From positions 1 through 28,132 of IMG/VR virus record IMGVR_UViG_3300010150_000111: a stretch of 28,132 nucleotides of DNA; one strand, given 5' to 3'. A program made the position numbers and the translations under genes. Positions 21,179 to 28,132 of this stretch are shown here, piece by piece. The stretch comes from a virus. Positions within the stretch are counted from its first letter, which is position 1. The number at the start of each line of letters is the position of its first letter. The notes beneath the pieces were generated by a model. That model was not told the origin of the DNA and did no database searches. It saw nothing but the letters and a program-made list of their open reading frames with translations.

Positions 21179-21901
21179 ATGATAATAGATTTAATGAAAA
21201 AACAAGTTCAAACGTTCAAGACAAAACTACCTGTATCCAAAAAAACTGTACAATTCAGACCTCTGTTAGTAAAAGAAGAAAAGCTAATAACAGAAATAAA
21301 CGAACTTGATAGTTCTATAGAAAACAGACTATCTAATCTAAGTAAATTAGTAGATTCTTGTTGTGTTGATATAGATTCGAAAAATTTAAACATGTATGAT
21401 TTTCAACATATGTTAATCGAATTAAGAAAACGATCATTTTCAGAAATAAGCGAGTTGAATATAACGTGTCCTGTAACATCAGAAAAAATAAATATCAATT
21501 TAGATTTAAATTCTGGTGTATCAAATAAAACCGATACTGAGTATCTTGAAATAGAATTAAATTCTATATTTCTAAAATTTAAAAAACCTACTATTTCAGA
21601 CTTGATTCAATCTGAATGTTTACCAAAAACATATACAGACTTAATAAATCTTATGGGTATTTGTTTGGTTGACATTGAAACAGATAAACAAAAATTAAAT
21701 ATGTCATCTATTAGCATAAAAGAAAAAATGGAAAGTTTAGAGTATTTACCAAAATCAAGTTTTGAAAAAATCAAAAATTTTATTCTTAATACCTTTGTTG
21801 AATTTAAAATTCACTATGTTACATCGGATGGAATAACAAGAACCATAGAAATCAAGGACTTCGTAACATTTTTAAAATTCTTTTTGGTTATACTACGCTA
21901 A
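21179..21901 (+). CDS. gp26-like baseplate/tail assembly protein, zero-frame product
   Basis: The 240-residue protein resembles T4 gp26-type proteins. LPVSKKTVQFRPLLVKEEKLI (17 to 37) is followed by two helical blocks with SNLSKLVDSCC and LNMYDFQHMLIELRKRSFSE (about 70 to 90), and then LNITCPV. T4 gp26 is a hub assembly factor. The arrangement here suggests a tail assembly chaperone. Near the 3' end the mRNA carries a T TTA AAA slippery heptamer (21871 to 21877) and an 11 bp hairpin whose loop contains the stop TAA. A -1 shift would therefore replace the last 7 residues with a 62-residue extension. AGGA overlaps the end of the upstream gene and lies 6 nt before the start. Confidence 0.7.
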   Translation: MIIDLMKKQVQTFKTKLPVSKKTVQFRPLLVKEEKLITEINELDSSIENRLSNLSKLVDSCCVDIDSKNLNMYDFQHMLIELRKRSFSEISELNITCPVTSEKININLDLNSGVSNKTDTEYLEIELNSIFLKFKKPTISDLIQSECLPKTYTDLINLMGICLVDIETDKQKLNMSSISIKEKMESLEYLPKSSFEKIKNFILNTFVEFKIHYVTSDGITRTIEIKDFVTFLKFFLVILR

Positions 21902-25124: not shown

Positions 25125-26344
25125 CCATCAACAACGAAACAAATTATGATAGTAGCACACCAAAGCTACACAAAACTGGTTCTTTGTATGGATTAAAATT
25201 CTACGACGAATTGGAAGATATATTTGATGTAGATCAAAATTTTACATGCATTCCAAATATATCACTATTAGACAATAACTCTAAAATTATTATAGATTTT
25301 AGTTCTTGTAGAAACAGTGAAGATAATAATTTTCTTAATAGTATAATTTCTGGACTTACTGCATCACCGGGAGGCACTTCCGGAATTACATTAAGTAATG
25401 CTAAACATTTAGATTCAGATAAAAATGAAACTAGTGATTTGAGTGGTTATTTTACTTACAATAAACACTACACCGGTGTAATTGTAGCAGATGTTGTTAG
25501 TATAAATTCAGTTCAAGATTACGATAAATTATATAAAAATTCAAATTTTATTGAAATACCAGATTTTAAATTTTCGGTTTCCTTAACATCATCGTCAAAA
25601 CAAAATATAGTAAAAAACAATTTTGGGACAAACATTACACCAAGTTTTTCTTCATTGGGTGCAGTAAAAAATGATTATGTTCAATTTTTAAATGGAACAA
25701 ATAAAGGTATTATGTATAAAATAGAAGGAATTTCTGTAGACTCTAACCTACATGAAATAATTTCACTAACTGCAGGAAATTCATATTCATATTCTGAAAT
25801 CCAAGAAGAAGATAGATTTAACTTAGAAACAAAAATTAATGTTTATAAAACAGAAAATTCTTCTTCGTATCAAAGATTGTTTAATCAAAGTGACTCCAAT
25901 CTTGTTTCATATAATAGTTTAGTAACTAAAATATTAGTTACCACAACAACAGATTCTACAGGTAGTAAATTTTTATTAGACCAACAGTTTATATCTCCAG
26001 GTATAAGATTAACCAAAGATAGTTTATATCTTTTCGATTTAACAGGAGTTGCTTTGGAAAATGGAGAAACCTTCTTATTAAGTTCAACTCCAGATGGTAC
26101 GCATGGAGGTGGTATTAATTATACTAAAGATGTAACATTATACTCCGGCAAAGGATTGGTATTTAACCCCAAATCAAGTAGGTCCTTATTTTATTATTCC
26201 GCGAAAACCAAAAATATGGGAAATATAATTAACATAGTTTCGGATTCTACCGGACCTACTACTGCAGTAGGAACATATAACTTTTTAGTTTCTAATAATA
26301 ACTCAGGTTTTTACCAGTCGTCTAACACACAAAATTCATATTAA
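25121..26344 (+). CDS. Virion-like protein with a degenerate cupredoxin-like domain
   Basis: The 407-residue protein is not recognised over most of its length. Residues about 282 to 372 match a domain frequent in marine phage structural proteins, as remembered: a strand with 'G-H-P-F-x-x-S-T', then DGTHGGG, and a YYYC-x-x-H-x-x-M-G loop. Here the segments are GETFLLSS, DGTHGGG and YYSAKTKNMG. The putative copper ligands His and Cys are replaced (E316, S360, T363) while M366 remains. The fold is therefore probably structural. The upstream gene overlaps by 4 nt. The 3' end overlaps the convergent minus-strand gene by 4 nt. Confidence 0.55.
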   Translation: MTINNETNYDSSTPKLHKTGSLYGLKFYDELEDIFDVDQNFTCIPNISLLDNNSKIIIDFSSCRNSEDNNFLNSIISGLTASPGGTSGITLSNAKHLDSDKNETSDLSGYFTYNKHYTGVIVADVVSINSVQDYDKLYKNSNFIEIPDFKFSVSLTSSSKQNIVKNNFGTNITPSFSSLGAVKNDYVQFLNGTNKGIMYKIEGISVDSNLHEIISLTAGNSYSYSEIQEEDRFNLETKINVYKTENSSSYQRLFNQSDSNLVSYNSLVTKILVTTTTDSTGSKFLLDQQFISPGIRLTKDSLYLFDLTGVALENGETFLLSSTPDGTHGGGINYTKDVTLYSGKGLVFNPKSSRSLFYYSAKTKNMGNIINIVSDSTGPTTAVGTYNFLVSNNNSGFYQSSNTQNSY

Positions 26345-26739
26345 ATTCTGTCCGGCGGATATGAGGGAATATTTTCCCCCATATCGTTCCACCCATAAAC
26401 TTTCCATACATCACCCACCTGAAAATCTTCGGGTGCTATGACTCTCGCCCACCAAACTCCATTGCCATATTGCTTAGTGCCATCTGGTAGTTGAACTTGT
26501 TCATAACCCGACACATTGGCAGAATCCGTTGCCAACTGGTGAATGATTTCTCCATCACGATATATCTCAACAACCCATTTTGCATTCGGGTTTGCCTCGA
26601 CCCATTCATCAACAGTCACTTCACCATCAGATAGATTAACAGATTGGTATCCATAAGTAGATGCTGAAATGGCGGCTGGTCCTCCTGATCCCGTGTCGTC
26701 TGCGACATCGAAATCACCTTTGACTAGATCAACCGCCAT
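26341..26739 (-). CDS. Unknown protein in GC-richer cassette
   Basis: The 132-residue protein is acidic and probably beta-rich. It has YQSVNLSDGEVTVDEWVEAN (about 31 to 50), KWVVEIYRDGEIIHQL and VWWARVIAPEDFQVGDVWKVYGW (about 95 to 117). No family is recognised. It overlaps the end of the dockerin-containing gene by 16 nt, so the two are probably translated together. Its GC content and codon choice (GCC, GTC, CTC) agree with the two genes upstream and differ from the AT-rich phage genes on its left. No signal peptide is visible. Confidence 0.6.
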   Translation of the reverse strand: MAVDLVKGDFDVADDTGSGGPAAISASTYGYQSVNLSDGEVTVDEWVEANPNAKWVVEIYRDGEIIHQLATDSANVSGYEQVQLPDGTKQYGNGVWWARVIAPEDFQVGDVWKVYGWNDMGENIPSYPPDRI

Positions 26740-27554
26740 TCCGCTTTTGGGACGATGAAATGTCCTTCTCGACCATTGTCGTTCGGAGTTTCATTCATCG
26801 TCAGAAGCAGAATGTGATCAGCAGTTTCCCACAGAGGATTGAACTCCTCTGTGATCTCGATAGGATCATCAGGTGGATCGGTGGGGTCAACATCACCCCC
26901 ACCGTTCGCAGCCTCGATCTGATCGTTCCAAGAATCCGAGATGGCTTGGAATAGAAGTTCCATGTCCAACATATTTACTACACCATCTTTGTTTAGATCG
27001 TACAGAGGATTGTCAGTTCCGAGTGCGCCAATCAGGAGTGTCTGATCAAGTTCATCGACCCAACCATCACCATTGAAGTCTGCGAGTTGTCCTTCAAGAC
27101 GAGTTACGATATCCCACATAACTGGAATTTCGATGTTTTCACCTGCTTCTACACGCTGACTCACTACGGTAATGATTCTCTTTGTGCTGGCTTCCCAACA
27201 AACCAAACCAGAATACTGTTCTGGAATGATCGGAATGATACCATCACTGAGTTGAACAGTAAGACGAATGCTCATGGTACGAGCGACCGATGTACTATTT
27301 GTCCATTCGACTGTACCGTCTAGACCAAACGGTCCAACATAATCACCCATTGGTCGTTCATAGACTGCAACTACCTGTCGATCCCCTACATCACCTTCGG
27401 AAATGGTGAGGATAGATTCTACGCCCTCGTCACTCAACTGAGGGAGTCTGGTCGTTGTAGTTGGTTTCGGCATTCGTGGAGGACAATCAATGTCCTGTGC
27501 AAATGCACTATTACTTGCCAGTACGGCTGCTAGCGTTAATGATCTCAGCATCAT
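26724..27554 (-). CDS. Secreted protein with dockerin-type repeat pair
   Basis: The 276-residue protein has a Sec-type signal peptide. Residues 1 to 19 contain basic R4, a hydrophobic LTLAAVLA core, and an AFA cleavage site before Q20. A beta-rich part follows (about 45 to 150, with two Cys at 24 and 119). Residues 157 to 206 hold two calcium-loop repeats. The first is D159-N161-D163-G164-V166-D167-D170 and the second is D186-N188-D190-G191-N194-D197. Each is followed by a Leu-rich helix, as in type I dockerins. An acidic Pro linker (about 220 to 232) leads to the C-terminus. Dockerins bind cohesins in bacterial surface and cellulosome proteins. Their role in a phage is unknown. GGGAG lies 6 nt before the start. 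It overlaps the holin-like gene by 44 nt. Confidence 0.75.
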   Translation of the reverse strand: MMLRSLTLAAVLASNSAFAQDIDCPPRMPKPTTTTRLPQLSDEGVESILTISEGDVGDRQVVAVYERPMGDYVGPFGLDGTVEWTNSTSVARTMSIRLTVQLSDGIIPIIPEQYSGLVCWEASTKRIITVVSQRVEAGENIEIPVMWDIVTRLEGQLADFNGDGWVDELDQTLLIGALGTDNPLYDLNKDGVVNMLDMELLFQAISDSWNDQIEAANGGGDVDPTDPPDDPIEITEEFNPLWETADHILLLTMNETPNDNGREGHFIVPKAEWRLI

Positions 27555-27783
27555 CGGCTGCTCCCTTCGTTGATACCTTTACCCATGCTCGACTCCAAAT
27601 GTAACTACACATCACTGCACCTGCGACACTCCACATGGCGATCTCTCCACCCTCTGTGATGGGCCAGTTCTTAAACCAACCCGTACCTTCAAGAAGCGGA
27701 AGTCCACCAATTCCAATTGCTGCCCAAAACTCGGTGGACTTCACACCTGGCTTTGGATCTGTTGTTGTCTTTACTGTAGCCAT
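27511..27783 (-). CDS. Holin-like small membrane protein
   Basis: The 90-residue protein opens with a polar, Pro-rich part (TTTDPKPGVKSTEFW). It then has a short hydrophobic segment, FWAAIGIGGLPLL (19 to 31), and a second, IAMWSVAGAVMCSYIWSRAWV (about 48 to 68). A charged C-terminus follows. The KPGxKxTEFW opening is reminiscent of a small membrane-protein family found in marine phages and bacteria, often labelled holin-like. A holin would make the membrane lesion that starts lysis. No endolysin is adjacent, so the call is tentative. The start has AAAGGAG 7 nt upstream. The 3' end overlaps the signal-peptide region of the next gene by 44 nt in another frame. Confidence 0.5.
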   Translation of the reverse strand: MATVKTTTDPKPGVKSTEFWAAIGIGGLPLLEGTGWFKNWPITEGGEIAMWSVAGAVMCSYIWSRAWVKVSTKGAADDAEIINASSRTGK

Positions 27784-27816: not shown

Positions 27817-28132
27817 CTAAGGAACTCGATAATCTTCTGATGCCCTTGCGACAGAATCTTGTTCTCTATCTGAAGTTATATCTGATATTGGATACGCAGC
27901 AGGCGTAGTAACAGACTCTTGTGGGTATCTCAAATGCCAATGTGGATCCCAATTCTGCATCAAATTTCTTACTTTGGGAATAGTTAATCCACCCGACCAT
28001 CGATATCCCACACGAGCCCCATCACTTGCGGCAGTTAAGTACTGGTTTTTAATTTCTAGATTAGAATAATCCATGACTAAAGATGAACTGTTACCAATAT
28101 TGTCTGAATTTGTAGTATACCCAGTTGGATTG
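27817..28132 (-). CDS. Unknown protein, C-terminal part (5' end beyond right edge)
   Basis: The reading frame is open from TAA at 27817 to the window edge, about 104 codons. An ATG at 28074 gives 85 residues but has no Shine-Dalgarno, and the 19 codons upstream of it are free of stops, so the gene probably starts outside the window. The sequence has a KNQYLTAASDGARVGYRWSGG segment, an NWDPHWHLRYP motif and an acidic, Arg-containing C-terminus. No family is recognised. It is AT-rich like the virion genes and lies 33 nt upstream of the holin-like gene. Confidence 0.5.
   Translation of the reverse strand, partial: NPTGYTTNSDNIGNSSSLVMDYSNLEIKNQYLTAASDGARVGYRWSGGLTIPKVRNLMQNWDPHWHLRYPQESVTTPAAYPISDITSDREQDSVARASEDYRVP

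Follow-up and report, generated by a model that had tools for sequence, protein, structure and literature searches.

A gene of a marine T4-type phage encoding an apparently exported, dockerin-type protein of 276 aa ends in a textbook -1 frameshift signal, which was missed in the preliminary description of this sequence and through which the same gene would also give rise to a 404-aa form. The gene lies in the window, i.e., the whole 28,132-base stretch analysed, which is the IMG/VR virus record IMGVR_UViG_3300010150_000111 (Table 1). A single gene giving two products, one short and one long, is in all probability the right reading and is the best one available, because the slip signal is conserved and because the two frames are fused into a single ORF in a related phage. 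The comparison of relatives supports the domains of the protein, the conservation of the signal and the existence of the long form in frame in that relative, and from these sequences we infer the slippage, its rate and the export of both products.

In the proposed mechanism, the phage would make a Sec-exported 276-aa protein consisting of a beta domain and a type I dockerin. The ribosome would meet C_CCA_AAA at codons 268-270, aided by an upstream Shine-Dalgarno (SD)-like stretch and by a strong stem-loop that follows after 6 nt, and some of the ribosomes would shift to the -1 frame and read through the second ORF, leading to the 404-aa form with its extra C-terminal domain.

Table 1. Positions of the dockerin gene, its putative frameshift signal and the overlapping neighbour in the 28,132-base window
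Feature	Position	Strand	Basis
0-frame ORF, 276 aa, apparently exported beta-domain/dockerin protein (short product)	26724..27554	-	ORF list, Pfam, relatives, AlphaFold2
Putative Sec signal peptide, residues 1-19, cleavage between AFA and QD	27498..27554	-	Read by eye; layout kept in diverged relatives
Beta domain, residues 33-155	27090..27458	-	AlphaFold2, block pLDDT mostly 77-94; without close solved fold
Type I dockerin, residues 158-205, two calcium loops	26940..27083	-	Pfam 1.5e-11, own-genome search, Foldseek/VIA match to 2y3n_B
SD-like GAAGGA upstream of slip site	26763..26768	-	Duplex energy; stronger in most relatives
Slippery heptamer C_CCA_AAA, in frame, codons 268-270	26745..26751	-	Kept in 9/9 distinct sequences
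Putative stimulatory RNA structure, -39.5 kcal/mol, z -6.3	26663..26744	-	Folding against shuffles
5' arm of conserved 9-bp stem, 6 nt after heptamer	26730..26738	-	Pairing across sequences
3' arm of conserved 9-bp stem	26670..26678	-	Pairing across sequences
-1 frame ORF, 132 aa from ATG; C-terminal domain of putative 404-aa long product	26341..26739	-	ORF list; same domain in frame in L077
90-aa protein, two hydrophobic stretches, overlaps signal-peptide region; holin-like by size and layout only	27511..27783	-	ORF list; hydropathy

Domains and distribution of the dockerin protein

The T4-type setting proposed in the preliminary description is borne out by PHROG matches in the window to portal, sheath, terminase, neck and baseplate proteins and to a gp32-type ssDNA-binding protein. 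The portal is ~51% identical to the portals of cyanophages and of a Methylophilales phage. In the portals of two relatives (G006:C1:45242-46801 and G007:C1:42552-44111), one TAG and one TAA were reported within the match, yet the open frame is 525 aa.

The 276-aa ORF has an ATG start with a good SD sequence and its product begins with MMLRSLTLAAVLASNSAFA followed by QD, in which a basic n-region, a hydrophobic core and an AxA cleavage site can be read by eye. The same layout, also read by eye, recurs with diverged sequence (<50% identity) in the relatives and in other phage types, in agreement with the Sec signal peptide described previously. The region encoding it is doubly coded, through a 44-nt overlap with the end of the 90-aa gene, and the length of this overlap varies among relatives. 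The beta-rich domain of the preliminary description was recovered in an AlphaFold2 model, in which it is followed by the two helices of the dockerin. Fold matches of the beta domain comprise only scattered glycosidase beta domains, arrestins and fibre knobs (Z <6, E >0.001), and a function derived from them was rejected.

The type I dockerin motif consists of two F-hand calcium loops with Asp or Asn at positions 1, 3, 5 and 12. Both loops of the phage protein, D159-D170 and D186-D197, lie within a Pfam Dockerin_1 match covering residues 158-205 (E 1.5e-11, 44.7 bits against a cut-off of 22.9), and both display the F-hand pattern in the 12 aligned relatives. D159, N161, D163, D167, D170, D186, G191 and D197 are invariant in all 12, and N188 and D190 of the second loop are nearly so. 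The Dockerin_1 cut-off is also exceeded in L011 and L077, and the matches of L015 and L069 fall below it. In Foldseek, the modelled dockerin superposes on 2y3n_B, the dockerin of a solved cohesin-dockerin complex, with an rmsd of 1.0 over 47 columns (38% identity, TMt 0.73, prob 1.00, E 0.093); the same structure is the top match of a second structure comparison (Z 7.5, rmsd 2.8, 59 aligned). PHROGs and NCBIfam gave no match naming the 276-aa protein. The product is a genuine dockerin-type protein of T4-type phages, and apparently an exported one.

In IMG/VR, full-length relatives were found in 12 other contigs of the window's branch, five of them 78-97% identical to the window protein (L002, L003, L004, L005 and L006), five 45-49% identical (L011, L012, L013, L015 and L016), and L069 and L077 in addition. 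Because the pairs L004/L005, L012/L013 and L015/L016 are identical over the dockerin gene, the comparison includes nine distinct two-frame sequences, the window among them, and L077. A T4 portal is found on the same contig as the dockerin gene in L011, L012 and L077, i.e., in three of the 14 related records searched (window apart), most of which are fragments. Hence the gene is phage-encoded with relatives in phages, as the preliminary description had it. Two findings could have undone that description, namely loops outside the dockerin profiles and absence of the gene from related phages; the loops lie inside the profile and the gene is present in related phages.

Shorter relatives (L022-L026), 38-40% identical, end directly after the dockerin, and a T4 portal was not found on the records of the short-form phages L023, L024 and L025. 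Among known phages, tblastn with the window protein, L025 and L077 found nothing in 50,697 phage records. In BFVD, the 199-aa viral protein A0A516MFS6 is a whole-length structural match (Foldseek E 3.1e-10, 197 columns, 22% identity) which differs from the window protein by stopping near the dockerin end, as do L022-L026.

The frameshift signal and the second reading frame

At the junction of the two frames, an SD-like stretch, the heptamer C_CCA_AAA, a 6-nt spacer and a 9-bp stem follow each other in this order. The heptamer is found at the same place and in frame in eight out of eight sequences and the ninth, L069, also carries one, so that a conserved, in-frame X_XXY_YYZ heptamer within the overlap with the -1 ORF is present in all nine distinct sequences. 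Runs of at least three codons with an invariant third base occur only twice in the gene, at codons 268-271 (the slip site) and at codons 273-276 (the overlap, which is doubly coded), and in column shuffles four given columns are all invariant at a frequency of 0.00055.

Putative stimulators lie on both sides of the heptamer. Upstream, the SD-like stretch has a duplex energy of -5.4 to -12.3 kcal/mol and stands 8-11 nt before the heptamer in eight out of eight sequences, the window having the weakest of the set (-5.4). Downstream, the 9-bp stem TGGCGGTTG/CAGCCGCCA encloses a nested hairpin and is paired in 81 of 81 cells across the nine sequences. Six of its nine pairs never vary and the other three vary on one side only, via U-G or G-U; in the inner hairpin, both bases of one pair are altered in L015 and L069. 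All nine sequences fold better than dinucleotide shuffles (z -2.2 to -6.3, L012 being the weakest at -2.2). The covariation score of the stem was reached by 27 of 500 shuffles, a weak measure here because the outer stem hardly varies, and part of the conservation of this outer stem may stem from double coding.

As a control, 93 in-frame heptamers were collected from 29 window genes (8803 codons). The C_CCA_AAA site has by far the longest -1 frame of the 93 (136 codons against 64 for the next) as well as the strongest fold (-39.5, against a mean of -10.6 for random 82-nt stretches, none of 300 being as strong), and it alone combines a long -1 frame with a strong fold. A second candidate site, T_TTA_AAA, was noticed in the baseplate-hub gene of the window (21179-21901, plus strand), ~31 nt before the stop, with an upstream AGGA, a 64-codon -1 frame and a weak fold (-14.8).

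These elements can be set beside published frameshift data. In E. coli, C_CC.A_AA.A belongs to a set of 18 under-represented motifs whose shifting exceeds 0.10% in the absence of stimulators, and an SD-like sequence located 6-17 nt upstream is described as a proven stimulator (PMC4066793). Counted from the first base of the P-site codon, the dnaX and HIV stems are reported to hinder or stall ribosomes at a downstream distance of 11-12 nt (PMC7282821); the corresponding distance here, from the first base of CCA to the stem, is 12 nt. Given the known shift at this motif, the stimulation by SD-like sequences and the 12-nt stem distance, the expected output would therefore be both a short 276-aa and a long 404-aa form.

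Support for the long product also comes from L077, an 86.8-kb contig with a T4 portal and a diverged relative of the gene, in which a single ORF encodes a 356-aa protein with, in this order, a signal peptide, the beta domain, the dockerin and, last, the domain which the other sequences carry in the -1 frame. In BLAST with the window ORFs alone, this protein matches the second ORF at 6e-13 and the first at 1e-13, and with the joined products of L011, L069 and L012 the match spans the junction (up to 3.7e-34, 365-378 columns). The same polypeptide would therefore be made without a frameshift in one branch, which, on the sequences at hand, is the strongest single argument for the reality of the long product. 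The 132-aa domain itself gave a Pfam E-set match of 0.14, which is not significant, no significant PDB sequence match and a model with pLDDT 49, and no exact relative of it was found in the bacterial genomes and contigs searched, in searches run without a positive control.

Host, neighbouring genes and possible role

A scan of 84,980 genomes found nine loci with a single full-length relative (residues 7-202), which is on a phage-like contig in a marine Phycisphaerae MAG and is the same protein as that of the virus contig L025. The other eight loci match essentially the dockerin part, and three of these eight are titled Phycisphaerae or Phycisphaerales. The family profile matches 90 of 198 genomes of the class of this MAG against 20 of 194 of the class of Clostridium celatum, with best matches of 58.1 bits (phage contig apart) and 35.9 bits, respectively, and the bacterial matches listed begin at profile position 123 at the earliest, i.e., at the dockerin end. 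The T4-type branch itself was not found in 397 genomes of the MAG's class or in the genome contigs searched, and the host assignment is for this reason based on the resemblance of the dockerin and on one binned contig of another phage type. The resemblance of the dockerin module to Phycisphaerae (Planctomycetota) dockerins, together with the full-length relative on a contig of a Phycisphaerae MAG, makes a planctomycete a plausible host of the window phage, to be taken as a lead. The preliminary description had asked whether candidate hosts encode cohesins: matches to cohesin models exceed the cut-off in 18 of 101 genomes of the MAG's class, but none was found in the MAG with the full-length relative itself. 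In 11 related virus records, all of them fragments, no cohesin model matched at E<=1.

Small membrane-protein genes adjoin the dockerin gene in two phage groups. In the window, the two hydrophobic stretches of the 90-aa protein reach a mean hydropathy of only ~1.1 over 19 residues; the protein has no Pfam or PHROG match at E<=1, and none of the small neighbours matches a holin family. In phages of another type (L022, L024, L025 and L026, four of the four examined), the dockerin stop codon either overlaps or lies directly beside the start codon of a 43-46-aa protein (L022:3780-3917, L024:1323-1457, L025:6449-6580 and L026:563-703) that combines a single hydrophobic stretch with a charged tail (MExx..LPIIENN..PLIVWVLVY..VKGIRRDLQEIKDKI). 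Near the in-frame version, a possible lysis gene (L077:2784-3059) codes for a membrane protein of 91 aa that weakly matches haemolysin XhlA (E 0.0026, below cut-off). A T4 late promoter, TATAAATA, was sought for the cassette and dismissed, with no copy near it in the window and with five exact window copies, which is no more than chance; the motif is present upstream of the 90-aa gene in L015/L016.

A second dockerin/EF-hand protein adjoins the cassette in several relatives (L004:4661-5755, L002:2454-5633, L006:4683-5747, L011:1679-2785, L013:64-831 and L077:1423-2451). It starts with MRLQYTYEESDCY..., is without signal peptide and is extended to 1059 aa in L002; in the window, a different 85-aa ORF (27817-28074) at the contig end takes its place. 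Its dockerin-like pair scores equally well with EF-hand models. The HAIGCRH and GDSG motifs of this MRLQ protein are reminiscent of trypsin-like proteases, a reading that was dropped as neither Pfam nor PDB sequences gave support beyond the EF-hand/dockerin end. In addition, an exported-looking 295-aa protein lies beside the cassette in L011:751-1638 and L016:1628-2515, with the same start (...FAQEVCPPRYN) in both and no Pfam, PHROG or NCBIfam match.

The junction could also be read as two separate genes, the 132-aa ORF being started alone or by coupling and the heptamer and stem being explained by double coding or by a role in coupling. A possible start codon of the second ORF is present in nine of the nine sequences (ATG, GTG or TTG, never CTG), an invariant TGG codon accounting for the TG of this NTG and not for the lack of C, and starts overlapping an upstream stop are ordinary in phages. 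We consider two genes improbable, since no SD stands beside the NTG (duplex energy merely -0.1 to -4.1 kcal/mol in eight sequences) and the SD-like stretch is at frameshifting rather than starting distance, since third bases are frozen at a heptamer that lies upstream of the doubly coded part, and since the domain of the second ORF is fused in frame in L077. Another suggestion of the preliminary description, a cargo gene from the host, together with that of a contig misassembly, would fit with dockerins being mostly bacterial, but is refuted by the virus-contig and genome counts and is practically untenable: the gene is common to 12 other virus contigs, three of them with a T4 portal, and the beta domain was unseen in the bacterial genomes searched, one phage-like contig apart.

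One gene with two products could also encode a part of the virion, for instance a decoration or fibre protein whose C-terminus is extended by frameshifting, in which case the N-terminal hydrophobic stretch would not be an export signal. Frameshifted Ig-like extensions are described on phage coat and tail proteins (PMC5009743), and the adjoining protein without signal peptide (L004:4661-5755 and relatives) also carries a dockerin/EF-hand pair. This is unlikely, as the signal-peptide layout and the likely cleavage site recur at <50% identity and in other phage types and no PHROG structural family is matched. T4-type virions assemble in the cytoplasm, which further counts against an exported-looking protein being part of one. 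It is also conceivable, if rather doubtful, that the dockerin does not dock and is instead a calcium-stabilised spacer between two beta domains without a cohesin partner. The absence of cohesin matches from the related virus records and from the MAG agrees with such a spacer, as does the equal score of the neighbour's pair with EF-hand models; against it stand the dockerin pattern kept in both loops and invariant in 12 of 12, the close superposition on 2y3n_B and the cohesins in the putative host class.

For the protein read as an exported one in two forms, the envelope is suggested as the site of action by export, by the docking module and by the small membrane-protein genes that adjoin it in two phage groups. 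The dockerin may hold the protein on the outside of a Phycisphaerae-type host, via the host's own dockerin-receiving sites, where it would act late, together with the adjoining small membrane protein, in envelope disruption or release. This role is the most likely of those considered, and is put forward tentatively; superinfection exclusion comes next as a weaker candidate, and a virion part third. More broadly, phages of Phycisphaerae might plug into the dockerin-cohesin or sorting system of the host surface, with an effector whose short-to-long ratio is set by frameshifting and which acts late in infection on the host outside, a possibility that we regard as speculative.

Significance and comparison with known systems

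Outside lysis and superinfection exclusion, few phage proteins leave the cytoplasm and stay on the host. With a dockerin on such a protein, the partner to test becomes concrete (a cohesin or a dockerin receiver of the host), and the slip signal predicts two protein forms whose ratio can be tested. In this phage group, the ORF at 26341-26739, a separate gene to any gene caller, would be better annotated as the terminal part of the adjoining dockerin gene. Should a planctomycete be the host, the dockerin gene would be a marker for T4-type phages of Planctomycetota, and, if the surface-docking reading is true, it would represent a viral hijack of a bacterial surface-docking system in which frameshifting tunes an exported rather than a virion protein. 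A literature search of mostly open-access journals (titles and abstract openings) found no phage dockerin, no frameshifted exported phage protein and no phage paper for Planctomycetota. Frameshifted extensions of phage proteins are already known; an exported, dockerin-bearing one is what differs here, and no published case was found.

The module resembles type I dockerins by its Pfam Dockerin_1 match over the cut-off, with the nearest profile matches in Phycisphaerae. Type I dockerins are usually located at the end of an enzyme, whereas this one is phage-encoded, with a phage-specific beta domain before it and a frameshifted domain behind it. The GC-type dockerin of Planctomycetota (NCBIfam NF041540) is matched by relatives below its cut-off, but not by the window protein at E<=1.

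Frameshifted C-terminal Ig-like domains are described on coat and tail proteins of several phages, e.g., T3 and Lactobacillus phage A2, and some relatives encode such domains in frame, according to a review (PMC5009743, citing Fraser et al. 2006). As far as that review describes them, these extensions share with the present gene the short and long forms, the extra C-terminal beta-type domain and the existence of in-frame or frameshifted relatives (here L077 versus the rest). They are carried by virion proteins, whereas the window protein has a signal peptide and a dockerin, and they have an Ig fold, whereas the C-terminal domain of the window has only its E-set match of 0.14 and a low-pLDDT model. 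The signal itself resembles the bacterial -1 signals of the dnaX/IS911 type, with an SD-like sequence upstream, an X_XXY_YYZ heptamer, a short spacer and a stem-loop. It differs from them by its heptamer (C_CCA_AAA instead of A_AAA_AAG) and by a ~50-nt loop with a nested hairpin in place of a simple hairpin.
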